Part shown: positions 1,680 to 49,623 of the stretch, piece by piece
Numbering within the stretch: position 1 is the first letter of the stretch
Layout: every line of letters begins with the position of its first letter
Origin: Crambe crambe
Lineage: Eukaryota; Porifera; Demospongiae; Poecilosclerida; Crambeidae
Direction: 5' to 3'
Assembly: GCA_963924555.1 (NCBI GenBank)
Contig: OZ004590.1
Span: 62,001 to 126,000 of the forward strand
DNA: 64,000 nt
Program-made: the position numbers and the translations under genes
Notes under the pieces: model-generated
What the model saw: only the letters and a program-made list of their open reading frames with translations
Databases searched by the model: none
What the model was told of the DNA's origin: nothing

Positions 1680-2480
1680 TAGTTGCGGTTTTTAGCTTGT
1701 ATCAAGCTACGGTTGAATACTTACAGGTCAGGAGACTGACAACAGGAATCCAAGGAAACAGTCCTGAGCAGGCAAACGGGAGTCACAGCAGGGAGACTCA
1801 GTGACAGCTACCACACAATGAAATATTTTAGTTCATACAATGAAATATTTTAATAACCTAGCTAGTAATAAGTCTCAAATTTGACAATTTTGCCAAGGAA
1901 CAACCATTACATAAAATTAATGACAACAAGAGCAGACTAGTTTGCTGCAAAAGTATTTCTTACCAAAATTTGATAGAGAAATGCAGGCGATTAGCAAGTA
2001 ATTGTAACAATTTAGGCCATTAGTCATAGCTCACCCACACAATGATAATTCAAGAGTACCTAGCTAGCAATAAAAGTCTCAAATTTGACAATTTTGCCAA
2101 GGAACGACCATTACATAAATGACAACAAGAGTAGACTAGTTTGCTGCAAAAGTGTTTCTTACCAGCAGATGAAGGTCAGCAAACAGCTCCAACTGTGAAA
2201 AATTTGATAGAGAAATGCAGGCGATTAGCAAGTAATTTAAGCCATTAGTCATAGCTCACCCAAGGAACAGACCTTACCAGTACACTTACCAGTTAACTGG
2301 AAGAAGGCCGAGAGCAGAAGAACTAAAGTAACAACGAGAGACAGCAACGAGCGACAGTCCAGCAGCTGGCAGACAAATAGTCTTCTCTGCCAAAAGGCCT
2401 TTTATAGGCTCTAACCACGATACGCGTCATAATTATATCACATCGTGACGTAATTAATTTGTACCTGACCCTTGACCCAC
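1680..2480 (-). promoter_or_regulatory. Promoter/leader cassette 1
   Basis: On the minus strand, a DR1-like pair (complement of TGACCCTTGACCC, 2466-2478) is followed by TATAAAAG (complement of 2399-2406). Then comes a leader ending in GTTAACTG|GTAAGTG (donor near 2289), and further leader exons ending ACCT|GTAAGTATTC (near 1720). The same arrangement recurs at 23880-24342, 29990-31710, 40355-42453 and 48060-49623, each time pointing at a gene. The target here is probably the gene containing 1099-1274. Promoter function is inferred from motif order and repetition. Confidence 0.65.
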
Positions 2481-5400
2481 ATTGTTGGATCAATCACTGC
2501 TCTCTCCCTACCTCTACCGTGTCTCCTTCGGGGAACCCATAGTTAGGAGAGGATTGCAAGATTGCAAGAATGATTGTAAGTTGTGAGGATTGCAAGTCGG
2601 TTGTCCAATGAGAGATGCAAAACTTGAGGCTGTTCCTCAATAGATGCAGTTGTGCTTTACATTTGGACAACAGACTTGTAGATGAGACGTGGTGTAACGT
2701 AATGCCAAGTTGTGTGTTGCAGGACCTTGTAAACTAGTGGCACAGATCACATACAGTATTTCGTGACATGTCTGCTTCTTCCTCTGGGTTGGCTATGCCA
2801 CTATTATTATTATAGCTAATTTGAGCCTGACCTTTGACCCTAATCTCAATGCTAAGTAAGTTTATCCCCCTTGCAGGCAAGCCAGCTTAAGGACTAAACA
2901 GTTTGGTTTGAACTGGAGCGCTACCAGCTACTATGACGGATGCTATTTTTATGTCTCTTTCTGGTGAGGATTGTATGGACTATAGATTCCATATCATTAA
3001 TTAATTAATTAATTAGTGTGTGGAATGCTGTCCAGTGGTAGAAGTGGCGTGTAATGAGTGAATTACCCCGACAGTAATCTCAAATTTGATTTTGTTTCCT
3101 CTAAATTGGCAGTGACAGCATTGGCAGACGTAGCCTTTCTTTTAATAGACACCAGGTTTGAATGAAACTGTTGGAGCTACCACACGGGTCTGAAATGAGG
3201 CAAAGAAATAGGTTAGAGACCAGACAGGCAAGGTGTCTGCCAATGCTGTCACTGCCAATCTTGAGGCTTATTGTGTTCGTCACCTACTAAAGTATAGGCC
3301 CATTATGTTAATAAAGTTCTTGCCTATATCACATAATTCATGGTGGTAAATATCTCTTTACAAACTTGATGGATGACTAAATGAGGTTAATATTTGAATG
3401 TGAGACTAAGAATGATTATTATTATTATATTTTGGGATGCCACAACCTTCACTATTAAAATTGACATAGTGACATAGTTACAACAAGCCTTCTACTCTGG
3501 TGGCATGGATGCTGGCTATGCAAGATTACATTGGTGGTTGCTGTCACCATTACTGTCACTTTCTAAACTTTACCATCTCATGTTGTTGGCTAATCACAGA
3601 AATGGCATAGTAGAGTGAAGGTCAGCACACTAGCAACCTCAACAGCTCGTTGACTGTTCCCTTGAGGTCAACCTCACTCCAAGATAGTGTTGATGAGCTG
3701 TATGCTGTTGATAAGACAGTGCTTTGACTATGAATGGTGCTTTGACAGTGTTGATGCTGTTGATAAGACAGTGGTTTGACTAGAAGCCTCAGTGATAACT
3801 GACCATTGTGCTGATTTCTAGCAAATTGTGTGGATAGTGAACTTATGCCAGTATAGGGTTATGTCGCCCGTTATAATTATGGGCTTGAGGTAGGTAACCT
3901 GCAGGTGGAGCAAACCCACCAGCATGGATCCCAAGCCACACCACATGGGATATCCATGTTTACCATCTTGCCTACAATATCATGTTGTTGGCTAAATAGC
4001 CATCCTAGGCATCCTTGCCATAGTACAGTGAAGGTCAGCACACTAGCTTCTAACCTAAACAGCTCTAAACAGGTATATAGTTTGGTTGACTGCTCCCATG
4101 AAGGTGCAGGCTAGTTGTAGATAGTTCTAGAAGCCCCTGCAGGATTGGGTAATCAATTGATAACTGACCAGTGTTTTGAGACTACAAAAACTAAAGCAGC
4201 TGCAGGCTGCCAACTGATTTCTAGAAAACCATGTGGATAGTAAACTTTCCTGCTACATTTCATATTTGGTTTGGAGTGTATGGAAATGTGAACAAACAAG
4301 TCTGTAGTATCTTAATATGGGAACAGACAAACTGACAGAATAACACAGAGAGAGGAATTGGTATAGTTCAGAGAAGGGAGGGGGCTTGGCCACTTTAGTG
4401 GACTGAATGGCGAATCGAAACCACCTCTATGGCATTTTACTCTCTGGGGTTAACGTTATCTGAACTGAGCTTAGACTAACACCTGGCTCGAGGTCAAAGG
4501 TATCCTGATTCGTAATCGTCTTAGAAAGGTGTAGATGCAATATGTGTAGCCAATAGCATATCACTCCCCAAAGGGTGTTCAATGCCACTCTGATGGGGCC
4601 CATTGTATTTGAATAGCCAGGTGAATATCGAAATCCCATTCAAGCACCTTTTTCACCGGCTGACAGGAATGATTCTTTGACGTGTATTTTAATACACCTC
4701 GTGGGTGAAGTAGTTTGGGTGTGATTATTGAAATTCAGGGAACCCATAGTGAGGACGAGATTGTGAGGATTGCAAAACTTGAGCTCTACATTTAACCACC
4801 ATCCAAACTTTCTGCAGGGCATTAGTGTGTGGAATGCAAAGTTGTGTGTTCAGGCACAGGTGGGGCATGTTATAATTATGAGCTAGACCAAAAATGGAAT
4901 TAATATGTGGCCTGAACATGGGCTTGAGCTAGGTACCCTGGCTAATCACAGAAATGGCCATCCTGGCAGTGAAGGTCAGCTCATCAACAGGTGGTTGACT
5001 GTTCCCACGAGGTCAACATAGTGTTGATGCTGTTGATAAGACAGTGCTTTGACTAGAAGCCTGTTGATAAGACAGTGCTTTGACTAGAAGCCACAGGGTT
5101 GGGATAACTGACCAGTGTGCTGCCAACAGATTTGTAGTGAAATGATTCCCTTCTCTCTAGAAGGCTATGCCAGTATACTTGGTTTGCAGTGTATGGAAAT
5201 ATGACTGATATTGCTTTAGTGGAAAATGAAATGGCACTTTACTCTCTGGGATTAATGTTATCTTAGAACAACATCTGGCAGTACCATGACATGTATATTC
5301 TCTTCACTATAGGCATATCATCTGACTCACTAAGCATGCAGTGCATGGGATCCCTAAGGAAACTAAAGAGCTCGAGGTCAAAGGTTTAGTCAGGTGGGTA

Positions 5401-6095
5401 GCCAATAGCATATCATCTGGGCCCATTGTATTTTAATAACCACATGAATATCGAAATCCTTTAATGTGGCTAATAATTCTTTGATGTGAATTTTAATACA
5501 CCTTGTGGTGAAGTAGTTTTTATTGTGCTTTACATTTGGACAACCGACTTGCAGACCAGACTTGCAGACCAGACATGACCTGTTGTAACCACTGACTTGA
5601 CCTGTGGTAACCACTATCCAGCCTTTCTGCAGAGCATAAAATTATACTTAGGAGCCTTCACCCATTAATAATTATTACAAGCATGGATGGAATATTGGTG
5701 ACACGATGGACGAGTGCAGACCATGTTATTTATATCTGATATTATCACATGGTAAATATTTCTTTGCAGAGTGTTCCATGCTGCAAACTAACTTGATGGA
5801 TGACTAAATGAGGCTGCAATGTATGCTACGATAACTAGGGCAATGTACATTTGAGTCACAGAAGATTTAAATGTGAGTTTTATATGTAAGTGGCAGGCAG
5901 CTGTATACATAGAAAAACTGCAAAGTACTTGTACATGAGCCTGCTGCCCAAAAAGGCTGTAGAAACTGATAACTGATTTGTGCTTTGCTGTTGAGTTATA
6001 AAAGTGGCAGGCAGCTGCATGCAAGTACTTACCACAAAGCTTGTCTAGTGCCTACAATCGATCCTACAAAGCATGTGATGTAGAAATCAATCGAG
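2481..6095. repeat. Duplicated non-coding spacer, copy 1 (left part)
   Basis: No supported gene. Blocks recur elsewhere: 2480-3290 matches 24343-25180, 31711-32040 and 49624-50300; 5030-6095 is nearly identical to 32337-33425. It includes a (TTAA)n stretch near 3000, a DR1 motif TGACCTTTGACC near 2828, and a short direct duplication of 'TTGATAAGACAGTGCTTTGA' near 5033-5080. Short open frames here overlap in several frames and follow the repeats, so they are not genes. Confidence 0.85.
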
Positions 6096-6100
6096 CAATT
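6096..6100. repeat. 5' target-site duplication CAATT
   Basis: CAATT stands directly left of the 5' LTR and again directly right of the 3' LTR (10619-10623). The paralogous spacer near 33431 carries the undisrupted site with a single CAATT, so the duplication and the exact ends of the retrotransposon are confirmed inside the window. Confidence 0.97.
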
Positions 6101-6313
6101 TGTAGTGACTTGAACTTTGGACTGTATTACTATCATTTATGTAATCATGTTAGTGTATGCGCATGTTCATCCTTAGCTGGCTACCATTGTTGTGTGGCGC
6201 CTTTGCGCCTTATGTGTGTGTCATTTTTTGTATCAATTGGTGGATTGTTGTCACAAGTTAGACCTCGAGTATAATAAAGAGTTTTGATTATTATCGAACC
6301 CTAGTACACAACA
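6101..6313 (+). repeat. 5' LTR
   Basis: Starts TGTAGTGACTTG and ends CTAGTACACAACA. It contains AATAAA at 6273-6278, a likely polyadenylation signal, within an AT-rich end. It differs from the 3' LTR at one base. Confidence 0.97.
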
Positions 6314-6315
6314 AC

Positions 6316-6333
6316 TGGCGACGAGGATGCCGG
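6316..6333 (+). promoter_or_regulatory. Primer binding site overlapping the gag start
   Basis: Two bases after the LTR the sequence reads TGGCGACGAGGATGCC. The TGG start is the complement of a tRNA CCA end, as expected for a minus-strand primer site. A serine tRNA is the usual primer in the Mag clade, but the exact tRNA is not shown here. The gag ATG (6327) lies inside the site, so the internal leader is only 13 nt. Confidence 0.7.
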
Positions 6334-10618: not shown

Positions 10619-10623
10619 CAATT

Positions 10624-22278: not shown

Positions 22279-23807
22279 TCAGCAGTCTACACAAAAAATA
22301 AAAGCAATTATTAATTCAAATATTAATTGGATAGTTTCCAATTTGTCCAATCGATTTTCAGGAAAGGTATGCATTACGAGTCTGTCGGAATATTTTCTCA
22401 AAATTTTAATCATAACCTTACTTGGTTTTATAGCTATTCCCAACATACACTTCTGGTTTTCTCGTAATAGTCCACACATTTGTTCTGTGGTTTGATCATC
22501 AAATGACTGCGCATCTCCAGACTTGATTTTGCCAATTATTCTGTATAATTTTTGGATGTAATCCCAGAAGGATACATCTGGGTATCTATTGTGTGTTTCT
22601 TTGTTATAAATACGACCGTACGATGGTATGGCTGACGTGGATGGCGTTGATGGAGTACAACTACGGCTTTGACTAGGACTAGGGCGGCTAGGGCTTTGAC
22701 TACGGCTTTTACTTCTGTCGTTCTCGTATTTCAGCCAGTAATAAGTTATCTGTGTACACCCAGGCTGCTCCTCACCAGATGCATTTGTTCCCATGTTTGC
22801 AAATTTCCTGAAAGGCCGTTTGATCCAACAAGCAAATTTCATAAGCTCGCAGAGAAAAACCTTCCCTGCTGCACTGTCAAAAGAAACGGTTTTTGCTGTA
22901 TTGAAATAGTCTCGAAGTATCAAAAAATCTTCCAAAATAAATTTCCAATCGTCTGGAGGAAATGCTGGAGATATAACTGAATCGGTGACCTGTTCGCCAC
23001 CAGAATCTGACTCGGCAAGAGCAGCTGGGCGCTGGTATTGCCTTATGTCTCTTGCATTTGTGAAAAGGTGCTCAAGAATTCCTTTTAATTGTCTTGCTTT
23101 TTGGTCGATGTGAACCTGGTGACATTTCAGGCGTACGTCGTCGATATTGACATATTGAAGATCCGGTCCGATGACAACTTCGATCAGAATAGAATTCACT
23201 CTCAACCACTTGAGCTTCGTTCCATCATGGAGTATAACTTCGTCCACATATCCCCAATTGAAAATTTCGCTCCTTTTGCATACCACGGAATTTCCCTTCA
23301 ACATGGAGGACCATGCTCTCTCGGTTTCAGTGGGTGTGACTTTCTCTGGGGGGATAAAAATACATAGTGTGACACAGAGAAAAATTAATTGTTATTGCAG
23401 ATGTTGGTCTTCTACTGTGGGCTTTGGTGACCTAGCCATACCTATAGTAAAACCTCCAGTATCCAGTCTCTCCGTGCTAGTGTTCAATTAGCATCACCAG
23501 AACGAGTACAGGCTTCTACTGTGGGCTTTGGTGACTAGCTACCTATTGTAAAACCTCCCATTTACCTGGAGATGAATTGTCAGAAGTTGAAGTAGGCTCT
23601 ACAATCTTCGTTGTGGCTACGGGGGCTGCCCGTTTCTTTAATCTCTTCGTCTTTTTATTCGTCGGGATTTTTCCTTTGGAGGTCTGCATAATTTAGAAGG
23701 GACCCAGATAAACTGCTTTGGCAGACGTGCACATGAAAACATCGACTTACAGATCTCAAAGTCATTCCTAAAGTCTTCTCGAAGGTGTCCCCTGGTGGTT
23801 CAGTCAT
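22279..23807 (-). CDS. Gene A: PD-(D/E)XK-like C-terminal domain protein
   Basis: Proposed exons are 23751-23807, 23566-23683 and 22279-23345; phases join exactly to about 413 aa. The start is uncertain: an ATG at 23689 gives a two-exon form of 396 aa. The N-terminus is Lys/Arg-rich (KKTKRLKKR), possibly a nuclear signal. The centre is unknown, then a Ser/Arg/Pro-rich linker. The C-terminus reads RYPDVSFWDY, 15 residues, GKIKS, then QTTEQMCGLLRENQKCMLG. Gene C has the same pattern and spacing with GEIKS, which fits the Asp ... Glu-X-Lys site of PD-(D/E)XK nucleases. Here Glu is Lys, so activity may be lost. Leader cassette 2 lies directly upstream. I know no named family; the nuclease fold is inference. 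Confidence 0.75.
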
Positions 23808-23879: not shown

Positions 23880-24342
23880 CAGAGCGAGGCAGCACAATAA
23901 AAGTCTGAAATTTGACAATTTTGCCAAGGAACAACCATTACATAAATGACAACAAGAGTAGACTAGTTTGCTGCAAAAGTGTTTCTTACCAGCAGATGAA
24001 GGCCAGCAAACAGCTCCAACTGTGAAAAATTTGATAGAGAAATGCAGGGGATTAGCAAGTAATTTACGCATAGCTCACCCAAGGAACAGACCTTACCAGT
24101 ACACTTACCAGTTAACTGGAAGAAGGCCGAGAGCAGAAGAACTAACGATTGACAGCAACGAGCGACAGCAACGAGCGCGAGCGACAGCAACGAGCGACAG
24201 CAACGAGCAGTCCAGCAGCAGGCAGACAAATAGTCTTCTCTGCCCAAAAGGCCTTTTATAGGCTCTAACCGAACCATAGATACGCGCGTACGCGTGACTT
24301 GACGTACGTGACGTAGATTAATTTGTACCTGACCCTTGACCC
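23880..24342 (-). promoter_or_regulatory. Promoter/leader cassette 2 (gene A)
   Basis: On the minus strand: DR1-like pair (24330-24342), TATAAAAG (24253-24260), a leader rich in short CAACGAGCGACAG repeats (given on the plus strand), donor GTTAACTG|GTAAGTG near 24112, then the block shared with the other cassettes. Only one leader unit is kept before the gene-specific exon. The gene start follows within 75-200 bp. Confidence 0.75.
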
Positions 24343-24382
24343 ACATTGTTGGATCAATCACTGCTAGCTCCCTACCTCTACC

Positions 24383-24441
24383 TAGTCTGGCATAGCACCG
24401 CCCACCGACTTGAGTAATGTGGGCGGTGCTGTGCCAGACTA
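24383..24441. mobile_element. 59-bp palindromic MITE with 9-bp target duplication
   Basis: Two 23-bp arms, starting TAGTCTGGCATAGCACCGCC, differ at one pair and enclose a 13-bp loop. ACCTCTACC stands on both sides (24374-24382, 24442-24450). The paralogous spacers near 2510, 31740 and 49660 have one ACCTCTACC and no insert. It is among the shortest complete elements one can define. Same family as 21687-21774. Confidence 0.95.
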
Positions 24442-24450
24442 ACCTCTACC

Positions 24451-27400
24451 GTGTCTCCTTCGGGGAACCCATAGTTAGGAGAGGATTGCAAGATTGCAAG
24501 GATGATTGTAAGTTGTGAGGATTGCAAGTCGGTTGTCCAATGAGAGATGCAAAACTTGGGGCTGTTCCTCAATAGATGCAGTTGTGCTTTACATTTGGAC
24601 AACAGACTTGTAGATGAGACATGGTGTAATGTTGTGTGTTGCAGGACCTTGTAAACTAGTGGCACAGATCACATACAGTATTTCGTGACATGTCTGCTTC
24701 TTCCTCTGGGTTGGCTATGCCACTATTATTATTATAGCTAATTTGAGCCTGACCTTTGACCCTAATCTAAGTTTATCCCCCTTGCAGGCAAGCCAGCTTA
24801 AGGACTGAACAGTTTGGTTTGAACTGGAGCGCTACCAGCTACTATGATGGATGCTATTTTTATGTCTCTTTCTGGTGAGGATTGTATGGACTATAGATTC
24901 CATATCATTAATTAATTAATTAATTAGTGTGTGGAATGCTGTCCAGTGGTACAAGTGCCGTGTAATAAGTGAATTACCCTGACAGTAAATCTCAAATTTG
25001 ATTTTGTTTCCTCTAGATTGGCAGCAACAGCTAGCCTTTCTTTTAATAGACACCAGGTTTGAATGAAACTGTTGGAGCTATGACACGGGTCTGAAATGAG
25101 GCAAAGAAATAGGTTAGAGACCAGACAGGCAAGGTGTCTGCCAATGCTGTCACTGCCAATCTTGAGGCTTATTGTACCTCATCACCTTTACCTACTAAAG
25201 TATAGGCCCATTATGTTGTTGGCTAATCACAGAAATGGTTGACTTTGGGTAATCAAGTGATAACTGAGTAAACCATGTGGATAGTAAACTGACCCTTCTC
25301 CTCTCTAGAAGGAGTAGCTATACTTTGTTTGATAACACAGAGAGAGGAATTGTTATAGTAACAGTGTCACTGGAAATTTGTTAAAAGATGTGGTATAATT
25401 AAGACCCTCCAGCCAGTAGCGAAGCCACTTTAGCTGACTGAATGAAAACCACCTCTATGGCACTTTACTCTCTGTTGATGCCTATTACCTGAAACAAGCC
25501 TGGCTGTACCGTGACATGTATAATTATTGTCGTCACTATAGGCATATAGTCAATTGTAATTGAATAGCCATCGAGGTCCTTTGTAGCAAGTTTTCACTGG
25601 CTGGCAGGAATCATCCATTGATGTGAATATTATTTTATTAGTATAGGTAATCACATGCTTTTGAATGCAATTTGGGTATAATTGCATGAGAAACTGGCTA
25701 GGTAATTGAGGCCAAGCCGAGTGCAATTTTAGACTGTTTCCAATGCAATTATACCCAAATTGCACGGAAAAGGCATGTGATTGCCTATTAGCTGCATGTA
25801 GGAAGCTGTTAGCTAATGTGTTGCCTCAATATGCTTACATAAGCCTAGCGTGGCCAACAATCCACTTACATAAGCCTAGCACTTACAATCTTTGAAAAAA
25901 CACAAGCTAGTCTACCATCCATCTTGTTGTACACAGAGGTGTTAACAGTTTACTGCTATTTGTGTACCCTTGTTTTCAAACATGAATAACAAAACAAAAA
26001 AAAAACAACTTCAGCTGGGGCAGTTGCATGTAGGAAGCTGTTAATATGAACCTGCAATACTTGCACAAATGCTTATAAGCCTATCTGGTGGCCAACAATC
26101 CACTTAGATAAGCCTAGCACCTACAATTCACTTTGAAAAAACTTTGTAGGATGGCTATTAATTGTCTGCAATTAATTATGGATTAATTGCAGAACTAAAT
26201 ACAGGGTGTGAGGTAGGACAAGCACGTCTCCTTCGGGGAACCCATAGCTGATCCTGAATAGGGATCCTAGCCCCTATATCACCTGTTATAATTTGGAATA
26301 TCATCGTGGACGAGTTCAGGCCACGTCATTTGTGCTTTGCTGTCAGTTATAGAGGTGGCAGGCAGCTGCATGCAAGTACGCATATGTCTAGTGCCTAAGA
26401 TCCTACAAAGAGATGTAGAAATCAATCTGAGCAATTACTGTATGTAGCCAGGGGCATTTTGGTAGATATCCCCAAAGTTATCCGCCAGTTTCTGCTCAGT
26501 TCTCACTCATCAACATTATTGCAATACTTCCAGCTTTTGGCTGTTGGGTTTTGACACCATCCACCTCAAGAATTTGGCTCAGTCAGCTGTCCTGTGGACC
26601 CTATGGATATTAGGGGGGAAATATAGTAAGCTTGCCATCTCCATAGAATGACTATTGTATAGAAAACGAATGCACCAATTCCATTTACTGTTCTATCCTT
26701 TCCCTGAAATAACTAATACAGTTTCAATATTGTTAATCTATTTCTTGGGAGAGGGATTACAGTTTTAACACCACTTGCAAATGCTAGAGACAATATATGT
26801 CAGCTAATACAAAAACTAACATTACTATTCCATGTAGCTAAAGTTTACATGCCTTTTGATCAGAAAATGGGCAACAGCAATTGATTCTATCAAGCGTGAG
26901 AGGGATAGGGACTGGCACATTATGCTTTTTTGCTTCCCTATTATTCTATTCTTTAATTCCAGCTGTATAAAGTCATTATTCTTTTTTTACTGACCTATTA
27001 ATCTTTAATTATGCTCATAGCTGATGTCATATGTATTGAAGACTATGTAAATAGCTATCTGTAATCTCATTAGCAGACGAGTTTGGTCAAACTAGGCTAG
27101 CTAGTATAGGCACACATGATAAAAACATCCATGGAGTTCACTTCCCATAGCCTATTATGCCAGCATTATGCTTCCTGCTTTGATAGACCTATTATTCCCA
27201 AAACTATGCTGGCAGAATGTGCCAGTCCCTAGAGAGGGATTATAGTCCCATTAACCACTACAGTAGTATTTGTAGGATTAAACTTGAAAATCTGAGCTAA
27301 AATTTATTTCATACAGTAAATCTATGCCCTAGTGTATTATAGTATCATTGGCATAAGTCTTACCTCATGGATCTTGTCAGAACAGCAACTTTGACAAAAG

Positions 27401-27823: not shown

Positions 27824-29512
27824 CTACACTCTGGTTGCCATACTTTGGCTGCAGTCTGGGGGGGGGGGGGGGGGGGGGGGTGGTGGTGTTGGTGTTGGAG
27901 AACTCTTTGCCATCATTTTCGACAATATATAGGAAATCGATCCCTCCACAGCCCAGCCTACACTATCGTTACTTCTGTACCGTACCGTAGCGGTAGTTTG
28001 TGCAGCCCTAAAATCTACAGTTAATTTCAGCAACAAGTGTAGTGATCGATATCCAAATGTAAGTCCGTATATAGTCATGTTTAGCTGCAAAAGTTCTTCA
28101 GAAGTATAATTCACTAATATCGATTCGAGCTCCCTAGCTAAACACAACAGCATATTGGCCCTGAGCTGAAGTTCAATGGATTCTTCCATCTCCCTCTGTT
28201 TATGCTTCAGCTCGATGTTGGAGCCCAGTCTAACCTCATCTGAATGTACAGGGCTTTGCTCGTCATCCCCTTCCTCTTGCTCCCCACATGATCCACCCAA
28301 GGACAATACAGCCTGTTGGGACTTGAATTTTATTTCAATGTCCCCTCCTCCACTAAATTGGCTCATTAAGCATTCTTTTTTTGAGCTTATACACACTTTG
28401 CACTTGTCCTTCAATTTTTCTTGGCTTAGTTTATCGAGAATGTGACTCTGCACGTCACTCTCAGTCGAGAATGTGGGTTCTTTCGCTTCCCTGTACATGT
28501 AGACAGCTTTAACACCATCGCCTTCTATGTGTACCTCTACTTCTTCAGCAGCCCCATCGATGTATTTAGCGAGCCCATGCATATGTTCGTCCCTGTACTT
28601 AAACAGTTTTTTATTGCTGAGCAGGTCATCGGTTGAGCCTGGGAACGTGCCATGTACATTTGGATCTATAGCTCTGCAACCTCTACGGGTCGCAAATTCG
28701 TACCGGTAAATAGGAGCGTGGTCAGGTCGTTTAACAAGGTGAAATTGACCTCCCGCAAGATTGTATGGAAGGGCTTTTATTCCTTGAGCAGAACATGCCT
28801 CATTCACCGTGATCGGATTGAAAATGACCCGGTTAGGTAGGCTCACTTCAATTCTAAAAGGTTCGATACCGAGTCCAAACAATATGGCAGGTCTTTCTAC
28901 TTCCTGGAAAGGAGGACGGGGAAAGAAGATTGTATGCAGTAAATTTGGGTATATTTTCGGTATGATGTATACGTTACATTTTACTGATGGGGTCGTACTG
29001 AACCTACCTTGGGCCGTTTTGAGGTCAACGAACGTTGAAAATCGACACTCTGAAAAAGCCCCACAACATACTCGGTCAATACACTATTGATAAGTAGTAA
29101 TAGTAGTAGTCTCACCATTAAATAATGAAAAATCTTGTTACAGTATTGTAGTGACTGGGTCTTATTGAAGGTAGTTCCCAAGCATCTTCCAATCATAAAC
29201 TTCAAATCGTCACCCTGAGAGGAAGCGATGCTAATATCAAATGCATGAGCCCAGGAAAGCTTACCCTGTCCTTATCCTGGCAATAAGAATCTATATCAAT
29301 GTCTGCTAGGTATGGGACTAGATTTGTAGGAACCTCTAGCACTTCACATATATTTGTCCATTCTGTAATAATTACATACGATAATATTGGCCCATAAGAC
29401 ATACTATAATACATTTTACGACATACTATTAGACAAACTTAGTTATACCTTCTCTTGATTTCTGCAGTAGCATCTTTTCATGACTTCTCTTGGCCGCCAT
29501 AATGGGCTGCAT
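27824..29512 (-). CDS. Gene B: five-exon gene of unknown family
   Basis: Exons 29449-29512, 29265-29362, 29116-29214, 29008-29049 and 27824-28903 join in phase (1383 nt, 460 aa). All introns start GT and end AG (86, 50, 66 and 104 bp). The start is ATG 29512 or the in-frame ATG 29500. I do not recognise the family. The last exon has GGGDIEIKFKSQ, then an acidic stretch, a helical ELQLRANMLLCLARELE block and a YGLTFGYRSLHLL strand block. This order resembles PD-(D/E)XK domains of CR-type effectors (Glu-X-Lys, Gln helix, late strand) but is weak evidence. Near the C-terminus, prolines are encoded by a run of 23 C (27858-27880), so length changes would alter the last residues. Cassette 3 lies about 480 bp upstream. 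Confidence 0.8.
27858..27880 (-). repeat. Homopolymer (C)23 inside gene B coding sequence
   Basis: Twenty-three G on the plus strand encode prolines about 15 codons before the stop. Runs this long slip at replication and are often misread, so the length and the downstream frame (DCSQSMATRV) are uncertain. Confidence 0.85.
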
Positions 29513-29989: not shown

Positions 29990-31710
29990 AGCTTGTTCTG
30001 TCTAGCTACGGTTGAACACCTGCGGGTCAGGAGACTGGACGAGAGAATAGTCCCGTGCAGGCAAGAGAGCCACAGCAGGCAGAAGCGGGAGGGAGACTCG
30101 GCAACAGTTATTACACAACGAAATGAGCTTAGCTAGCAACAAATCTCAAATGTCAGTATTGATGGTGCTCACTAGCCATAACAAAGGCAACGCATGGACT
30201 ATCTGTCGATACTCACCAAAAACAATGCCAAGGCAGACAGGCCAGAGAGAGCCAGCTACAGAGCTGCAGGCCAGAGAGCCCCAAGCCAGAGAGAGTTGCA
30301 GGCAAGAGAGTCGCAGGCAACTATAAGCACAAAGCACAATACGAAACAAGACATGGGACGAAGCTACATAGGGGTATCTGTCCAGCACTTTTGTTGTCAT
30401 TTTAAAATTGTAATGGCTGTTCTAGGAAGAGTAGCTAGCAATAAATGTGACCAGTTTTGACAGCCATTACACTTCAAAAGAAAACAAAGCTTAACTGGGA
30501 AAACTGCAACAGGTAGAGTAGGCAAACACGGAGACTGACAGCTATTACGAATGTTAGTTGTGGTGTAGCTTGTTCTATCTAGCTAGGTTGAATACTTACA
30601 GGTTAGGAGACCGGAAGACGGGAATCCACAAAAGAATGAGGGAACAGTCCCACAACAGGCAGAAGCAGGAGGAAGACTCGGTGACAGCTACCACACAATG
30701 AAATATTTTAATTCACACAATGAAATAATTCAAGAGTACCTAGCTAGCAATAAAAGTCTCAAATTTGACAATTTTGCCAAGGAACAACCATTACATAAAT
30801 GACAACAAGAGTAGACTAGTTTGCTGCAAAAGTGTTCTTGTTCTATCTAGCTAGGTTGAATACTTACAGGTTAGGAGACCGAAGACAGGAATCCACAAAA
30901 GAACGAGGTAACAGTCCCACAACAGGCAGAAGCAGGAGGAAGACTCGGTGACAGCTACCACACAATGAAATATTTTAATTCACACAATGAAATTGTTCTA
31001 TCTAGCTAGGTTGAATACTTACAGGTTAGGAGACCGAAGACAGGAATCCACAAAAGAACGAGGTAACAGTCCCACAACAGGCAGAAACAGGAGGAAGACT
31101 CGGTGACAGCTACCACACAATGAAATATTTTAATTCACACAATGAAATTGTTCTATCTGGCTAGGTTGAATACTTACAGGTTAGGAGACCGAAGACAGGA
31201 ATCCACAAAAGAATGAGGTAACAGTCCCACAACAGGCAGAAGCAGGAGGAAGACTCGGTGACAGCTACCACACAATGAAATATTTTAATTCACACAATGA
31301 AATAATTCAAGAGTACCTAGCTAGCAATAAAAGTCTCAAATTTGACAATTTTGCCAAGAAACAACCATTACATAAAATTTAATGATAACAAGAGTAGACT
31401 AGTTTGCTGCAAAAGTGTTTCTTACCAGCAGATGAAGGCCAGCAAACAGCTCCAACTGTAAGAAATTTGATAGAGAAATGCAGGCGATTATTCATAGCTC
31501 ACCCAAGGAACAGACCTTGCCAGTACACTTACCAGTTAACGGGAAGAAAGCCGAGAGCAGAAGAACTAACGATCAACAGCAACGAGCGAGAGCGACAGCA
31601 ACAGCAACGGGCGAGAGTTCTCTGCCAAAAGGCCTTTTATAGGCTCTAACCATAGATACGCGCGCGTGGCTTGACGTGACGTAGATTAATTTGTACCTGA
31701 CCCTTGACCC
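29990..31710 (-). promoter_or_regulatory. Promoter/leader cassette 3 (gene B)
   Basis: On the minus strand: DR1-like pair (31698-31710), TATAAAAG (31634-31641), a leader exon with donor GTTAACGG/CTG|GTAAG near 31530, and then a series of leader units each ending CCT|GTAAGTATTC. Three are perfect-length tandem copies (30838-31302); others lie near 30600 and 30010. An older unit near 30120-30330 is rich in GCCAGAGAGAG-type repeats. The strand agrees with gene B. Confidence 0.75.
30838..31302 (-). repeat. Three tandem 155-bp leader units
   Basis: Units start at 30838, 30993 and 31148, exactly 155 bp apart, and differ at a handful of positions. Read on the minus strand, each has a T-rich acceptor-like ATTGTGTGGTAG region, a pyrimidine-rich exon-like body (TGGGACTGTTACCTCGTTC) and the strong donor AACCT|GTAAGTATTC. 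The near identity shows recent tandem duplication. Confidence 0.92.
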
Positions 31711-32041
31711 AATCACTGCTATGCTAGCTCCCTATACCTCTACCGTGTCTCCTTCGGGGAACCCATAGTTAGGAGAGGATTGCAAGATTGCAAGGATGAT
31801 TGTAAGTTGTGAGGATTGCAAATCGGTTGTCTAATGAGAGATGCAAAACTTGAGGCTGTTCCTCAATAGATGCAGTTGTGCTTTACATTTGGACAACAGA
31901 CTTGTAGATGAGACGTGGTGTAATGTAATGCCAAGTTGTGTGTTGCAGGACCTTGTAAACTAGTGGCACAGATCACATACAGTATTTCGTGACATGTCTG
32001 CTTCTTCCTCTGGGTTGGCTATGCCACTATTATTATTATAG

Positions 32042-39721: not shown

Positions 39722-40354
39722 TTTTTTGAGATTACCAATCTGTGATTTGACTGATTTAAGATTCTAACCACATTTCCATGGGAGCCCTCCTCCCCAAGTT
39801 AAGCAGCCTCATCACAAGAGATGGTGCCTACCTCAAAGTTGCCATCTGTGCCACTACTTTATAAGGTTCGGGAACGTGCCACTTGTACCAAATCTATCAT
39901 CGATACAATCCTCACCGTGGGTACCCCGAAGGAGACATCAAAAATAGCATCCGTCGTAGTAGCTGGCAGCGCTCCAGTTCAAACGAAGCTGTTCAGTCCT
40001 TAAGCTGGCTTGCCGGTGAGGGGACAAATTTACTATTTGGCAACAGTGAAGGTCAAAGGCCAGGCCCAAATTAAGGCTGCTATTCTAGTGGCATAGCCAA
40101 CCAGAGTTCTCCACCAGACTACCATTTCGAGGAAGAGAAATACTGTATGTGATCCCCCACCTGTGCCACTAGTTTACAAGGTCACAACTTTGCATAAAAA
40201 CCTGCATCTATTGAACATCTATTCGGGAACAGCCTCGAGTTTACACAGATTTTGGGTCTTTCATTGGACAACCGACTTGCAATCCTCACAACTTACAATC
40301 TTCCTTGAAATCTTGCAATCCTCTCCTAACTATGGGTTCACAGGGTCAAATGTC
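39722..40354 (-). repeat. Inverted spacer copy leading into cassette 5
   Basis: Reverse complement of the block seen at 49680-50200 and 2490-2960 (CCCGAAGGAGACA, GCGCTCCAGTTCAAAC, AACTTACAATC). The whole gene C unit, spacer and cassette included, is inverted relative to the others. It contains an AAGGTCAAAGGCCA DR1-like motif near 40048. Confidence 0.8.
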
Positions 40355-42453
40355 AGGTCAAAGGTCAGACCATAATGCTGACGCGTATAGAGCAGAGGCC
40401 TTCTCTGCTTCCGCTATTTATTTGCCTGCTGTGGGACTGTTCCCTATTCATCTCGTTGCCGTTTCGTCTGCTCTCTGCCTTCTTCCCGTTAACTGGTAAG
40501 TCTACCGGTAAAGTCTGTTCCTTGGCTGGTAGTTTGAGAAATGGCCGTAAATCTTTACAATTACTTGCTACTCGCCTGCATTTCTCTATCAAATTTTTCA
40601 TTCTTCAGGCAGAGCTGTTGGCCTTCTCTTTATCTGGACCGTTCCCTCGTCCTGTTGTCAGTCTCCTGAGCCGTAAGCACTCGACTGTAGCTAGATACAA
40701 GCTAAAAACCGCAAGTCTTGTTCACGAGACTACTGGCTAGCTACTGAAATATTTTATCGTGTAGCTGTTGGTCTCCCTCCCACTCCTGTTTGCCTGCTGT
40801 GGGACTGTTGCCTCGTCGTGAGTCTACTGCCTGCTGTGGCTCCTGTTTGCCTGCGTGGGACTGTTCCCTCGTCCCGTTGTCAGTCTCCTGAGCAGTAAGC
40901 ACTCGACTGTAGCTAGATACAAGCTAAAAACTGCAACTAACAGGCAAAACCTGTCACAATTGCTTGAATTTATATATTTCATTGTGTAGTAGCTGTCACT
41001 GAGTCTCCCTCTCGCTTCTGCCTGCTGCTGGACTGTATCCTCTTCAGCTCAGTATCTGTGTCTTCTGCTCTCGGCCTTCTTCCCGTTAACTGGTAAGTGT
41101 ACTGGTAAGGTCTGTTCCTTGGGTGAGCTATGTCACAATTACTTGCTAATCACCTGCATTTCTCTATCAAATTTTTCATAGTTGGAGCTGTTTGCTGGCC
41201 TTCTTCTGCTGGTAAGAAACACTTTTGCAGCAAACTAGTCTACTCTTGTGATCATTTATGTAATGGTAGTTCCTTGGCAAAATTGTCAAATTTGAGACTT
41301 TTATTGCTAGCTAGGTACTCTTTAATTATTTCATTGTGTGAATTAAAATATTTCATTGTGTGGTAGCCGTCACTGAGTCTTCCTCCTGCTTCAGCCTGTT
41401 GTGGGACTGTCCCCTCGTTCTTTGGATTCCTGTCTTCAGTCTCCTAACCAGTAAGTATTCAACCTAGCTAGCTAACCAGTAAGTATTCAACCTAGCTAGA
41501 TAGAACAAGAACACTTTTGCAGCTAAAAACCGCAGCTAACTTTGCTAGCTACCCTTGAAATATATTTTGCGTGTAATAGCTGTCAGTCTTCCTCCCACTA
41601 CCGTTTGCCTGCTGTGGGACTGTTCTCTCATTGGCTTGTTCCCCAATTTACTCCCTCCCGGTCCTGTTTGCCTGCTACCCGCCGAGAGACTGTTCCCTCG
41701 TCTGCTTATTTCTGTTATCGGTCTCCTGACACGTAAGTGTTCAACCTTAGCTAGATAGAACAAGCTACACCATAACTAAGGCAAAACTTGTCACAATTGT
41801 AAGATACTCTCGAATTAAAATATTTCATTGTGTAGTAGCTATCACTGAGTCTCCCTCCTCTTCTTCCTGCTGTGGCTCCCGTTTGCCTGCGTGGGACTGT
41901 TCTCTCTTCCTGTTGTCAGTCTCTTGACCCGTAAGCATTCTAGATACAAGCTAAAAACCGCAACTAACTTTGCTAGCTACCCTTGAAATATTTTGTGTGT
42001 AATAGCTGTCTGTCTTCCTCCCACTCCCGTTTGCCTGCTGTGGGACTGTTCTCTCGTTGGCTTGTTTCTCCCTCCTGGTCCTGTTTGCTTGCTGTCTGCT
42101 GTGAGACTGTTCCCTCGTTGGCTTGTTTCTGTTATCGGTCTCCTGATCCGTAAGTGTTTACACTTGAGATTTATTGCTAGCTACTCTTAAATATTTTATT
42201 GTGTAATAGATGCCAGTTCTCTCTCCCGCTCCTGTTTGTTTGCTGCCCGCTGTGAGACTGTTCCCTCGTCTGCTTGTTTCTGTTGTCGGTCTCCTGACCC
42301 GTAAGTATTCAAACTGTAGCTAGACGGACACCACAACTAACGGTCACACTTGAGATTTATTGCTAGCTACTCTTGGATTGAAATATTTTATTGTGTAGTA
42401 GCTGTCAGTTCTCTCTCCTGCTCCTGTTTGCCTGCTGTGGGACTGTTCCTACC
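40355..42453 (+). promoter_or_regulatory. Promoter and tandem leader array (gene C)
   Basis: Begins with a perfect DR1 element AGGTCAAAGGTCA (40355-40367), then TATAGAGCAGAGG (40386), about 20 bp further on. Donor-like sites follow at about 40494 and 41091 (AACTG|GTAAGT) and at about 40671, 40894, 41456, 41730, 41935, 42150 and 42302 (CCTGANCC|GTAAG). Each later unit has the order TATTT(T/C)ATTGTGTAG, then TGTCA, then a pyrimidine-rich body with TGCCTGCTGTGGGACTGTTCC, then the donor. The last unit lacks the donor and runs into the gene C ATG 6 bases after GACTGTTCC. This is the longest of the arrays. Confidence 0.75.
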
Positions 42454-43675
42454 ATGTCTACATCACCTGAAGAAGAAAGACAACCTCCACCATCGAAAAG
42501 GTACTAGCATCATTCACCACCATGGTCCACATCAAAATACTACCACCTCGCACCCTTACAGGTGCTGTCGTCCAGACACCTCACACAGCTCTGATCAGGA
42601 TGCACCAGCCACTCGAGGCAACTCATTTCGTGGGACTACTGGGGTGCCCTATCCTAACATGCTCGGTTGGAACCGCCTCGTATTTGACTCGACTGATATC
42701 GACTACTCTGATTTAAAGGTACTCCTACTGTCCACCAGTGACAAGAACAAAAGTCATCAACCTCTGGAAGGAGAATTGAGTCTCGAGTTTACTGGCCCCA
42801 CCATTCTAAGTTCTTGGAGGGATATCAGCATCATGTTTAACGAGCCCTCGGTTTCCATTCAAGACGACCTGCTTCTCATCACATGCTCCAAGGCTAATCC
42901 TATCAACATTCGTCGAGCTAAAGCGTTGTTAATTAATTTATCAAGGCTAACATTATCCACCAAACCAACATTTGTTTACGATGTTGGGCCTGGCAACACT
43001 GGAGATTCAGACTCTAGTGACGAGGATGTGCCGCTCACACTTGAAAGGACTCCACTCTTCGCCTCTGAGGAACTAGGGGTAATTCAACACTTTTTAGAAC
43101 AAGCATGGGTGAGCTACCAGCGTGCAATCTCTGGGCATTTCTCCAATGGGCCGGGCAAGTTCTTCATGGACCACCTAGCCACGTACCTTGGGTTTGCTTT
43201 AACCTCCACTCGTTCCCGTTTCGAGTCAAGTCACAGCACTACCTTGGGTGGGTCCGGCACTATAGGTGACAAGGAAACACAGGCCGGATCAAGTACAGTC
43301 ACAACAATTTCGCTCAGCAGGTGTGACACCAGGGTTGGGTCCAGGTTTGTCTGTTCACAAATCAGGCGCTATTCAGATGTTTCAACATTTGATCACCTTG
43401 CCGGTGTGTATGTATCATGCGGGGAGATAAAGTCAACGCTTGACTCTGCAAACTTTCAGAATCTTGAACAGATGTTGGGACTGTGGAGATCAAACCAAAA
43501 GTATATGTTAGGGTGGACAATAAACCCTGATGACATTTATTGTCGAATTCTCGTCAGGAAACCGGAACAAATGGTGGAGCTGTTTCAATTGCGGGTGAAG
43601 AATAACATTGAGAATGTAAGATCCCTGGCGAAATTGTACCTTGCCTCGATCTTAATTGTCGACACTACCTGCTGA
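42454..43675 (+). CDS. Gene C: PD-(D/E)XK-like nuclease candidate, homologue of gene A
   Basis: Exons 42454-42500 and 42562-43675 (intron 61 bp) join in phase to 386 aa. The start ATG was chosen because it directly follows the leader unit and opens a short disordered head (MSTSPEEERQPPPSKR), like the head of gene A. The middle is unrecognised and has an acidic stretch (DSDSSDEDV). The C-terminus reads RYSDVSTFDH (Asp288), then CGEIKS (Glu304, Lys306), then NLEQMLGLWRSNQKYMLG and an end in VDTTC. Gene A matches this with the same spacing. Asp ... Glu-X-Lys plus a Gln-containing helix is the pattern of PD-(D/E)XK nucleases, so catalysis is possible here. Family and substrate are unknown. Nuclear or cytosolic location is likely, as no signal peptide or membrane segment is seen. 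Confidence 0.8.
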
Positions 43676-45541: not shown

Positions 45542-45639
45542 AAACAGCTCCAGAGCTTAGTTAAGTAACTAAAATTAATCATAATAATGAATACAACAAA
45601 AAATATTGATACAACAAAAAATATTGATATGGTCATTAT

Positions 45640-46240: not shown

Positions 46241-46460
46241 CCCCATAGCTTCACACCACTGCCCCAGTTGTGATATTGATATTAAATGTAGTCACAAAGC
46301 ATGCTATGGAGGTAATGTTAGCCTACACCACTGCCCCCATATACACCACCAGTGACGACACAGACACTGACCTTTTTTTTCAGCAATAATAATAATGTAC
46401 ATACTATACAGGTATATTGTATTGTAATTATCAGGCTGAGGATATGCTATATAGAGCTGA

Positions 46461-47914
46461 TCATGTGTCCAGACCAAGCTTGAGATACTTGGTTATAGGC
46501 ACTGCATTGCCAGTAGACTTTGTCCTCTTTCTGACTCCAGCTGCAACGTTATCAAAAGTATCTTTGTGATCGTCATCTTCGCCGCTATCAGCACTAATAT
46601 ATTCATCTTCGCTATCTTCAGACTCGAGCAACTCATTTGTTGTCTTTTCTTCTTTTGAGGAGATTGCATAAACGCTTGGAATCGAGTTAGAAGACTTCAG
46701 GTTCCACGCTGCACAGAAGTTAGTGGGTACATGTGGGAGAACATCATCACCGACATCCGTCCACTTATGACTCAGCACAAGTGATGTTAGGATGCTGGCC
46801 CTGAGTCCTATGCGACTATCATACGTCCATGCATATGATCTCAATGTGGACAGACATACGTCATTTTTTGGAAAGTACAAGAACGGCCTGGTCCTATTTC
46901 TCGTACATAAAAAAGCAGCAGTAGGTTGCTGTTTTTTTTGTCCCAACACCAGCAGTTCCATCACTACTTGGGATACAGTCCGTAAATCCCACAACTGTTT
47001 TTTCTTTTTCATGCGCCTGGCATACAGAGCTGTGTTTACTGATTTGTTTCGCCCATAACTGTTCGCACCAGCACCAAAGACGACTTTTTTCTTTTGCTGT
47101 ACGATCCTATTAATAAGTCCAAGTCCCCATGCACCGCTCCACTTTTTTTTATTGGTCTGATTGAGGACTCGTTAGAGATCATCAGGTATCCATCTTCTGG
47201 TGCCTGGCTGAGTACGGTGAGGATGACTGCACTGACCGACCGATCAGTGCTCTTCTTGGCTGTGCTCTCTGAAGCCCCACTTCCCTCAACATTTAAAGGA
47301 AACTGGAGCAGCGCCATTGCCTGGCACTTGTTGGCAATGTGCTCTTCATCGCTTGTCTTCGGCCTCTTCATCATGTTGCCTAGTGGTACTGTTATATCAT
47401 GGTGTACTTTTACACCGAGGATATCTACAAGGTTAAGGAGGTGGGTATAAGTTGAACATATCCATTGAAGCAGGTTTCATTATATCATTTTCATATCAGT
47501 CAAAAAAAATAAATAAATGATCATACATGTTATGTAATGGGACACCCCTGCTTGACCCTCATTACAACTTACCTGATATTTTGGAAAAAGTCTTTCTACT
47601 GTTCACTAGGAATTCCCCAAGTTTTTCCAAATTGTTTCCCTTGTCAAGATGTATAGAAACGGAATGAAATTGTATTCCTAGTACTTCAGACATCCTATTC
47701 CTTACAGCCGTCCTACTTACAACTACAAAGCTTAGTTTTGGCTGTTTTTTGCTGTGTCTAGTGGGTTCGGCAAGCGCTACGGCTCCAACAGCTAAAAGAA
47801 GTTTGAATGAAGGACATATCACTGGTGGTATTCAATGCTTACCTGGTATCTTTATAGGCTGGGTCAAACGTATCTCGAGAGCCCCACTCCCTCCAGACTC
47901 GGCTGTTCTCCCAT
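46461..47914 (-). CDS. Gene D: multi-exon gene with a frame break
   Basis: Exons 47843-47914, 47573-47791 and 47036-47424 join in phase; GT..AG introns of 51 and 148 bp separate them. The family is not recognised. A second open frame (47152 down to 46461) continues past the first one's stop, with a basic segment (ARRMKKKKQ), a helical block and a Glu/Asp-rich tail. The frames meet at a run of eight A in the coding strand (47143-47150). A one-base slip there would join them into one long protein, so either the gene is recently broken, the run is misread, or the second frame is a relic. The 5' end is unresolved; cassette 4 begins about 150 bp upstream. No catalytic motif can be named safely. 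Confidence 0.6.
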
Positions 47915-48059
47915 CTGTATGAATGACAACACAACACGTATTACAAAGTCTTCACCCGAAAGCTTCTCAAGTCAATTCCGAGATTGACAACTTCGATGTT
48001 CTCAAAATGGTGGCAGTTACACGAGAAAGAGCTACCTGGTTGGGCTTGTGTGCTTATGG

Positions 48060-49623
48060 TGTAGCTTGTTACGGTTGAATGCTTACAGGTCAGGAGACTG
48101 ACAACAGGAACCCACAAAAGGACGAGGGAACAGTCCCACAGCAGGCAGCAGGCAGGAGCGGGAGGGAGACTCAGTGACAGCTATTAGACAACGAGATATT
48201 GCAATTGTGACTTGGTGCAGCTTGTTCTATCTAGCTACAGTTGAACACTTACAGGTCAGGAGACTGACAACAGGACGAGGAACAATCCCACACAGGCAAA
48301 CAGGAGCCACAGCAGGCAGAAGTGGGAGGGAGACTCAGTGACAGCTACCACACAATGAAATATATAAATTCAAGAGTATCTAGCAATTGTGACAGGTTTT
48401 GCCTGTTAGTTGCGGTTTTTAGCTTGTATCTAGCTACAGTTGAGTGCTTACGGCTCAGGAGACTGACAACAGGATGAGGGAACAGTCCAGATAAAAAGAA
48501 GGCCAACAGCTCTGCCTGCACAATGAAAAATTTGATATAGAAATGCAGGCGAGTAGCAAGTAATTGTAAAGATTTACAGCCATTTCTCAAGAAGAACATA
48601 TTAACTACCAGCCACTTTACCAGTAGACTTACCAGTTAACGGGAAGAAGGCCAAGAGCAGAAGAAACACACTGACAGTAACGAGCTGAAGAGGATACAGT
48701 CCAGCAGCAGGCAGAAGCAAGAGGGAGACTCAGTGACAGCTACCACACAATGAAATATTTTAATAACCTAGCTAGCAATAAAAGTCTCAAATTTGACAAT
48801 TTTGCCAAGGAACAACCATTACATAAATGATAACAAGAGTAGACTAGTTTGCTGCAAAAGTGTTCTTGTACTATCTAGCTAGGTTGAATACTTACAGGTT
48901 AGGAGACTGAAGACAGGAATCCAAAGAACGAGGGAACAGTCCCACAACAGGCGGAAGCAGGAGGAAGACTCGGTGACAGCTACCACACAATGAAATATTT
49001 TAATTCACACAATGATAATTCAAGAGTACCTAGCTAGCAATAAAAGTCTCAAATTTGACAATTTTGGCAAGGAATAACCATTACATAAATGACAACAAGA
49101 GCAGACTAGTTTGCTGCAAAAGTGTTCTTGTTCTATCTAGTTCTATCTAGCTAGGTTGAATACTTACAGGACCGAAGACAGGAATCCACACAAGGGAACA
49201 GTCCCACGCAGGCAAACAGAGCAACAGCAGGCAGAAGCAGGAATCCACACAAGGGAACAGTCCCACACAGGCAAACAGAGCAACAGCAGGCAGAAGCAGG
49301 AGGAAGACTCAGTGACAGCTACCACACAATGAAATATTTTAATTCACACAATGAAATAATTAAAGAGTACCTAGTACCTAGCTAGCAATTTGACAATTTT
49401 GCCAAGGAACAACCATTACATTAATGACAAGAGTAGACTAGTTTGCTGCAAAAGTGTTTCTTACCAGCAGAAGAAGGTCAGCAAACAGCTCCAACTGTGA
49501 AAAATTTGATAGAGAAATGCCGGCGATTAGCAAGTAATTTAGGCCATTATTCATAGCTCACCCAAGGAATAGATACGCGTGGCTTGACGTGACGTAGATT
49601 AATTTGTACCTGACCCTTGACCC
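48060..49623 (-). promoter_or_regulatory. Promoter/leader cassette 4 (gene D), TATA part deleted
   Basis: At least five leader units on the minus strand, with donors near 48085, 48250, 48450, 48890 and 49165, point at gene D. The distal DR1-like pair is present (49611-49623), but the segment with the TATA box and first exon is missing: CCCAAGGAA joins directly to TAGATACGCG at about 49569. A separate copy of the GTTAACGG leader with its donor survives near 48630. The promoter may have moved or be weak. Confidence 0.65.

Follow-up and report, generated by a model that had tools for sequence, protein, structure and literature searches.

Subtelomeric promoter and leader cassettes precede groups of coding modules without detected mutual similarity in the sponge Crambe crambe

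We analysed a stretch of 64,000 nucleotides (the window) from the demosponge Crambe crambe, which lies 62-126 kb from a telomere. Five homologous copies of a promoter and leader cassette are present at about the positions given by the original prediction; one of the five is on the plus strand, the others are on the minus strand. An intact cassette consists of a DR1 site, an ACGTCA site, a TATA box, a first exon that ends in GTTAACTG followed by GTAAG, and repeated leader exons. The whole window contains 13 DR1 sites (4 on the plus strand and 9 on the minus strand), against none in 20 mononucleotide shuffles, and every one of the five copies carries a DR1. The features are as follows; other contigs are designated C1, C3 and so on, and P0004 is a full-length relative of gene E.

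1626..2250, minus: leader repeats of cassette A, without a recognised gene downstream
2250..2710, minus: promoter and exon 1 of cassette A, intact (DR1 2466-2478, TATAAA 2401-2406, exon 1 last base 2290)
2710..3309, minus: upstream flank of cassette A, common to other units
22279..23391, minus: module B ORF, 370 aa, stop to stop
24069..24632, minus: promoter and exon 1 of cassette B, intact (DR1 24330-24342, TATAAA 24255-24260, exon 1 last base 24109)
27824..29083, minus: module F ORF, 419 aa (FSGGGD ... IELKHK ... QLRANM)
29990..31493, minus: leader repeats of cassette F, with 155-bp and 267-bp spacings
31493..31936, minus: promoter and exon 1 of cassette F, intact (DR1 31698-31710, TATAAA 31636-31641, exon 1 last base 31533)
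40216..40528, plus: cassette C (DR1 40355-40367, without TATA box, exon 1 last base 40495)
40529..42448, plus: leader repeats of cassette C, with a second exon-end copy at 41085-41097
42341..43675, plus: module C ORF, 444 aa (YSDVS ... GEIKS ... QNLEQM)
46461..47476, minus: module D, two overlapping ORFs of 236 and 146 aa, weakly similar to a gene on C6
48040..49588, minus: leader repeats of cassette D, with an exon-end copy (last exon base 48633)
49588..49834, minus: remnant of cassette D (DR1 49611-49623), without TATA box and exon 1
61695..63044, minus: main ORF of module E, 449 aa, kinase domain
63045..63896, minus: probable N-terminal exons of E (63045-63353 matches P0004 residues 160-239; 63621-63896 assigned by eye)

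The predicted sharing of DR1, TATA box, exon 1 and leaders holds for cassettes A, B and F, but C has lost its TATA box and D both TATA box and exon 1. Each copy had also been expected to lie upstream of a gene; this is not so for cassette A, which has no same-strand ORF of at least 130 aa within 5 kb, and is so for the others. The kinase gene E (61695-63896) has a sixth cassette copy just outside the window, at C13:128409-128858, whose own first-exon end is deleted. Modules B and C share about 100 aa at 37% identity, with GKIKS in B corresponding to GEIKS in C, and the homology of module C to an internal copy on C1 starts at 42633.

Splice sites in the leader are largely kept. The exon-end anchor is followed by GT in 40 of the 41 copies examined, the remaining one being cut by the end of the sequence piece. 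All 31 copies of leader exon 2 examined have AG before them, and only 20 of the 31 have GT after them. In the sequence examined, promoters match 14-22 other places per 50 bp, leaders 9-25 and upstream flanks 6.5-12, and leader repeats of different chromosome ends are highly similar. Near the coding ORFs, homology to other units ends: the ORFs of D and F match no other place per 50 bp, B and E one, and C 2.2, the last value reflecting an ORF that overlaps leader repeats. Homology reaches kilobases upstream of the promoters, so that what is repeated extends beyond the cassette itself. An Rfam scan of the window gave no match at gathering score.

The exon-end pattern GTTAACTGGTAAG occurs in 50 exact copies in 143 Mb (none for the reversed-pattern control), and 41 of the 50 are at most 200 kb away from a contig end, in a zone that makes up about 5.0% of the genome (36 x 0.2 Mb / 143.1 Mb, 18 chromosomes). 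The copy on C12 was rejected as a chance match; the flanking cassette is entirely absent there. Leader matches away from the ends are few, comprising at least two on C16, one at C3:303858, one at 1.8 Mb on C10 and several clustered on C3, 533 kb from its end. A promoter match covers the TATA position at 25 genome places. Near the ends, 21 of 24 cassettes whose match spans the TATA box are directed to that end and three away from it; by majority, 11 of 12 contig ends are telomere-directed (sign p 0.006), telomere repeats being directly visible only on C13 and C10. Among near-end exon-end patterns, 11 of 41 are directed away from the end. The subtelomeric setting and the orientation are invisible to a reader of the window alone. 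No paper on CTAGGG telomeres in sponges was found among the matches listed.

The genes downstream fall into seven groups without detected similarity (F/S, B/C, D/G6, kinase E, K, P-loop NTPase and W), in line with the prediction that these proteins are mostly unlike each other; sequence and profile comparison between groups yielded few similarities. Module E matches PK_Tyr_Ser-Thr and RIO1 of Pfam above the cut-off, Pkinase just below it, and kinases in PDB. A match to nSTAND_NTPase5 is weak (E 0.0053; 17 bits, where the cut-off is 34). PD-(D/E)xK motifs recognised by eye in five groups suggest putative nucleases; Pfam, NCBIfam and PDB sequence searches gave no support for such a REase module, PDB profile searches with modules C and F returned only matches with E above 0.5, and hhalign detected no relation of C to F or to E. 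P0004 showed no Crinkler or ubiquitin-like header in Pfam at E<=1. Four of five coding pairs tested have a significant synonymous excess (Fisher p: E 1e-4; W C18/C10 4e-6; K 0.02; F15 3e-4), and pair S does not (p 0.10). The dN/dS of 1.85 for pair B rests on 8 differences.

We also addressed the objection that most copies might point at no gene, which is not the case among those examined. Downstream DNA was examined for 19 TATA cassettes, and 15 of them are followed within at most 5 kb by a same-strand ORF of at least 130 aa, comprising 11 recognised modules, two transposon ORFs and two ORFs without identification; four have none. Antisense ORFs of this size accompany 6 of the 19.

Promoters and coding parts are discordant in at least one pair. 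The copies of kinase gene E on C10 and C13 are 98.3% identical over 3813 bp and their promoters 90.9%, whereas the C10 promoter is 98% identical to that of an unrelated P-loop gene and 97% to that of gene B. An AU test, run after these identities had been seen, rejected the E promoters as sisters (p-AU 0.000124). For W on C18 and C19 the corresponding identities are 98.0% over 4144 bp and 91.7%. The discordance is clear for E and suggestive for W; sister promoters were not rejected for W (p-AU 0.113), P (0.080) or S (0.125). Pair P differs little between coding part (~92% identity) and promoter (~91%), and non-homologous DNA is present within the S block on C13.

Modules also occur with and without cassettes. 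K on C21 matches K on C1 at 96.5% identity, starting 285 nt beyond the exon end and without the promoter, and W on C10 is preceded by leader repeats without a promoter of its own. B on C3 and C13 is 99.0% identical over 1568 bp, and a 1.2-kb cassette is cleanly absent on C3. A retrocopy of B at C3 was rejected, as the missing interval has no terminal AG. The breaks in E, W and K fall in leader repeats or about 35 bp from them, and internal relatives of modules have no detected cassette. The predicted exchange of coding modules is supported by the discordance in E and, suggestively, W. Modules that occur both behind a cassette and without one (K on C1 and C21, B on C13 and C3) also speak for it, as do the internal relatives; the unrejected sisterhood in W, P and S speaks against it.

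Several other explanations were weighed. Concerted evolution of stationary units, in which gene conversion homogenises promoters and leaders and the coding parts stay unmoved, would account for two C10 promoters that are 29 kb apart and 98% identical despite unrelated genes, and for the similarity of leader repeats between ends. We consider it unlikely: E, W, K, S and B each occur at more than one place, so coding parts have also moved or been copied, and K stands on C21 without a promoter. Segmental duplication of whole units followed by coding divergence, with no exchange, fits the duplicated upstream flanks and spacers, and C5 and C14 do share an intact unit (promoter part and leader at 98.5%). 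However, promoters more than 90% identical precede coding parts without detected similarity, and the E pair, whose promoters are not sisters, is already hard to reconcile with this explanation, which makes it very improbable.

We give a similarly small chance to inert subtelomeric repeats whose DR1, TATA box and leader are unused and lie near genes by neighbourhood only. In its favour, several cassettes are damaged and some lack an ORF, but splice sites are kept, ORFs favour the same strand (15/19 against 6/19 antisense) and coding pairs are constrained. That the cassette is, or is part of, a transposable element landing before genes by chance seems to us most improbable. It is dispersed across many chromosome ends and cleanly missing from the C3 copy of B; yet this sole empty-site-like junction shows no target-site duplication by eye, and the copies are concentrated near contig ends, with few leader matches elsewhere, instead of being spread genome-wide.

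Taken together, we favour, with a probability of roughly 0.6, a family of subtelomeric expression cassettes whose promoters and modules reassort via leader repeats. Each unit would comprise a promoter with a DR1 nuclear-receptor-type site, an ACGTCA site and a TATA box, and a variable number of leader exons and introns, which may be transcribed and spliced and are probably untranslated. Such units stand before one of at least seven module groups, mostly in an orientation that would send transcription to the chromosome end. The leader repeats separate promoter from module; recombination or gene conversion within them may reassort the two among units and chromosome ends and thereby bring different effectors under one regulatory programme. 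These effectors, some of them putative nucleases, may act in intracellular defence or in genetic conflict. Points counted against this reading are the intact unit of C5 and C14, the damaged cassettes of C, of D and of E on C13, the lack of significant constraint in pair S, the dN/dS of pair B, the absence of a promoter before W on C10, the W, P and S promoters, the four cassettes without ORF and those directed away from the end.

Trypanosome VSG expression sites and Plasmodium var ups groups serve subtelomeric genes with shared upstream promoter types, and repeats upstream of the coding part serve recombination. The cassettes resemble these in setting, in shared promoter type and in the proposed recombining upstream repeats; the parasites, however, have one homologous surface-antigen family, whereas unlike, intracellular-looking modules are present here in an animal. 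In Fusarium, unrelated effector genes share mimp elements in their promoters, a likeness to our units; mimp is a small transposable element, though, and is not known to come with leader exons or telomere-directed arrays. Crinkler/RHS-type (CR) effectors were reportedly treated by Zhang et al. in 2016. According to a review, CR effectors occur also in free-living eukaryotes and carry kinase, NTPase and nuclease-like C-terminal modules behind differing N-terminal parts (PMC5289972). The Crambe modules, with a kinase and putative NTPase and nuclease-like members, may resemble them in this; by contrast, P0004 has no header domain by Pfam, and the shared part here is promoter and leader, not a protein header. 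As another paper describes, the msg families of Pneumocystis jirovecii use a UCS/CRJE expression site: each genome has a single UCS, the surface-protein genes are homologous, and they are subtelomeric, oriented towards the telomere and exchanged through recombination at a repeated element that directly precedes their coding part, behind a promoter-bearing upstream element (PMC5676039). The setting, the orientation, the upstream promoter element and the proposed way of exchange are alike in Crambe crambe. Unlike the msg system so described, the sponge has at least 25 promoter matches, not one site, its modules form seven unlike groups, and what they share appears to be untranslated. In the literature searched, we recognised no description of this cassette system or of Crinklers in sponges among the matches listed.

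We read the whole as subtelomeric promoter/coding reassortment in an animal. More speculatively, and rather doubtfully in full, a single nuclear-receptor/TATA promoter family may control a set of nuclease, kinase and NTPase effectors that all face the telomere, and recombination of promoters and modules through the untranslated leader exons may renew this set. Such a machine would resemble antigenic variation but serve intracellular immunity or genetic conflict, and its expression might depend on position or be exclusive. Parasites that vary a surface coat are known to exchange promoter and coding parts near telomeres. A similar layout appears here in a sponge, a free-living animal, whose coding modules resemble nuclease, kinase and NTPase effectors. 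Were the units expressed, the animal would have a mechanism by which recombination that leaves the coding sequence itself untouched brings new effectors under a regulatory programme already in place.

In this part of the genome, one family of promoter and leader DNA precedes coding genes that are mostly unlike each other. The original prediction held that five copies of one promoter/leader cassette each lie upstream of a gene on their own strand; this holds for copies B, F, C and D, which are followed by same-strand ORFs, and fails for copy A. Its further claim, that intact copies have DR1, the TATA box, the exon end and repeated leaders in common, describes A, B and F, while C and D are damaged.

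Cassette copies in the window, and the kinase gene near its end
2250-2710: cassette A, intact; no ORF on its own strand after it
24069-24632: cassette B, intact; followed by an ORF on its own strand
31493-31936: cassette F, intact; followed by an ORF on its own strand
40216-40528, plus strand: cassette C, lacking the TATA box; followed by an ORF on its own strand
49588-49834: cassette D, lacking the TATA box and first exon; followed by an ORF on its own strand
61695-63896: kinase gene E, belonging to a sixth cassette past the window's end

Per 50 bp, the subtelomeric sequence compared contains 14-22 other places matching the promoters, 9-25 matching the leaders and 6.5-12 matching the upstream flanks; for the coding ORFs the values are 0 (D and F), 1 (B and E) and 2.2 (C). 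A Ty3/gypsy-like ORF of 1369 aa (6288-10397), which matches protease, integrase, RT and RNase H and has almost no second copy in that sequence, separates the stretches 5030-6100 and 10619-13219, which adjoin in another unit. An ORF at 19542-19901 matches an IS1595-type transposase narrowly over the Pfam cut-off.

Alignment of the copies demonstrated a common anatomy. A direct repeat, GGGTCAAGGGTCA, of the type named DR1 and tied to nuclear receptors, is present in 18 of 21 promoter blocks and lies 52-104 nt 5' of the TATA box in the 16 blocks with both. The aligned copies also share an ACGTCA site and a GAGCCTATAAAAGGCC-type TATA box. The first exon ends in CTTCTTCCCGTTAACTG, followed by GTAAG; GT lies directly 3' of this anchor in 40 of 41 copies, the remaining copy being cut off there. 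TATAAA is found 72-187 nt 5' of the exon end in 16 of the 27 copies examined, and the lengths between the two differ by non-multiples of three, suggesting that the first exon is untranslated. Leader exon 2 is preceded by AG in 31/31 copies and followed by GT in 20/31, and the leader units are repeated, with at least 70 genome-wide matches to one unit.

The genome searched comprises 143.1 Mb (143,139,886 bases, 119 contigs). The Crambe crambe assembly odCraCram1.1 has 18 chromosomes (PMC12166358), and the contig containing the window, C13 (window at 62001-126000), corresponds to its chromosome 10 (7.57 Mb). An animal source is consistent with the Wnt C-terminal exons present at five places. CCCTAG repeats of about 6 kb open both C13 (C13:1-6146) and C10 (C10:1-5674), and the window is therefore subtelomeric. 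The telomere repeat of the sponge is CCCTAG/CTAGGG, not TTAGGG, the usual animal repeat; its six-fold form has 40,370 exact matches genome-wide (reversed control, 0).

The cassettes are concentrated near chromosome ends and mostly oriented toward them. The exact exon-end pattern occurs 50 times genome-wide (reversed control, 0), and for 41 of these a contig end is no more than 200 kb away, with 30 facing that end and 11 facing away from it; the majority faces the end at 13 of 14 contig ends. Among the promoter-query matches listed, 25 cover the TATA position, of which 24 are near a contig end and 21 of these face it (the majority does so at 11 of 12 ends; p 0.006 by sign test). The exceptions are two cassettes on C17 and one at C13:187667; the gene C cassette, outside this set of 24, likewise faces away. 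Copies of gene G6 lie close to both ends of C6 (C6:9038776-9039900, plus; C6:24815-25923, minus), each facing its own end.

We surveyed 2.8-5 kb downstream of each of 19 TATA cassettes with an ORF threshold of 130 aa. Same-strand ORFs of at least this length follow 15 cassettes, which argues against most genomic copies pointing at no gene; none follows the other 4 within the DNA surveyed, and antisense ORFs of at least 130 aa were found at 6/19. Recognised modules account for 11 of the 15 (S, E and W twice each, B, F, K, G6 and an F-like fragment). The remaining four comprise an ORF at C11 that looks Ty3/gypsy-like by eye, one of Helitron type at C5, and two ORFs without a recognised module, of 342 aa at C10:55 (a P-loop module lies 7.8 kb off) and 141 aa at C13:42. 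At C17:6756300-6761100, an antisense Ulp1-type peptidase ORF lies 3' of a cassette that matches copy A at 98% identity, with a P-loop gene about 12 kb beyond.

The coding modules form seven groups.

Groups of coding modules
i: F, relatives on C15 and at C13:161 kb (26% identity), and S; FSGGGD ... ExK ... QLxANM
ii: B and C (37% over ~100 aa); YSDVS ... GEIKS in C, GKIKS in B
iii: D with gene G6 of C6 (in a set of 14 proteins, E 1e-4)
iv: E, a kinase together with a VKNE-type part
v: K
vi: P-loop NTPase
vii: W

By hhalign, F and S are related (probability 94.5%, E 8e-8), and no relation of C to F or to E was detected. The motifs of groups i-v resemble, by eye, those of PD-(D/E)xK nucleases; family libraries and PDB sequence searches gave this reading no support. 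Among named proteins, those most closely related to E (ORF 61695-63044) come from fungi (Armillaria and Desarmillaria, identity 26-31%), and nameless matches score better. Each of the six groups searched (i-vi) has internal relatives away from the ends; among the matches listed (best candidates), no cassette match lies near them, and the sequence at C1:3.36 Mb and C9:5.0 Mb contains neither the exact exon end nor TATAAAAGG. Coding pairs gave dN/dS values of 0.17 (E), 0.09 (W, C18/C10), 0.33 (K), 0.44 (F15) and 0.45 (S), and Fisher tests of these five were significant for all except S (p 0.10). The W C18/C19 pair has two differences, both synonymous, and the B pair a dN/dS of 1.85 from 8 differences.

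The data show discordance between promoters and coding modules, clearly so for E. The E copies on C10 and C13 are 98.3% identical over 3813 bp and their promoters 90.9%; the E promoter on C10 has 98% identity with the promoter of the P-loop gene, which is unrelated to E, and 97% with that of gene B. In a tree of 20 of the 21 blocks (L036 was too short), sister E promoters were rejected (p-AU 0.000124, in a test chosen once the identities were known); sister promoters were not rejected for the W, P and S pairs (p-AU 0.113, 0.080 and 0.125). The partner's promoter was never the nearest (0/4 same-module pairs), although the P pair has similar coding and promoter identities and the S promoter block on C13 includes non-homologous DNA. 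W is 98.0% identical over 4144 bp versus 91.7% for its promoter. K on C21 and C1 is 96.5% identical starting 285 nt past the exon end, and K on C21 lacks the exact exon end and TATAAAAGG. B on C3 matches the window copy at 99.0% over 1568 bp (modules at C3:160884-161991 and window 22279-23391; protein 98.1%), with a 230 bp upstream flank (95%) joined on and the ~1.2 kb cassette absent; because the repeated unit includes this flank, cassette loss is simpler than gain. The E, W and K blocks start inside leader-repeat matches (C13:126804, C10:26045, C18:15910, C1:9553011), and the C19 block some 35 bp away from such a match. Speaking against exchange, an intact unit is common to C5 and C14, with promoter part and leader 98.5% identical over 1745 bp. 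A third W copy (C10:18514-18981) has leader repeats before it but lacks its own promoter; the first one met 5' of it is that of E.

Trypanosomes possess a subtelomeric expression-site system, and the sponge cassettes would work similarly. As read here from sequence, the cassettes would also resemble in their working the Pneumocystis system (PMC5676039). However, the sponge lacks two of the features tested, a single site and homologous genes. In content it resembles Crinkler/RHS-type repertoires, as reviewed in PMC5289972; a Pfam test found no header domain of that type. We file it as a new form of subtelomeric expression-site system, belonging to neither comparison class.

Taken together, we propose that repeats sited between promoter and coding module supply homology across chromosome ends, which would serve ectopic recombination or conversion among them. 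If the leader repeats are untranslated and spliced, as the anatomy suggests, a splice acceptor and a start codon would be all that a new module has to bring. Different effectors, some of them possibly nucleases, would thus come under one promoter, with a possible role in defence or conflict.
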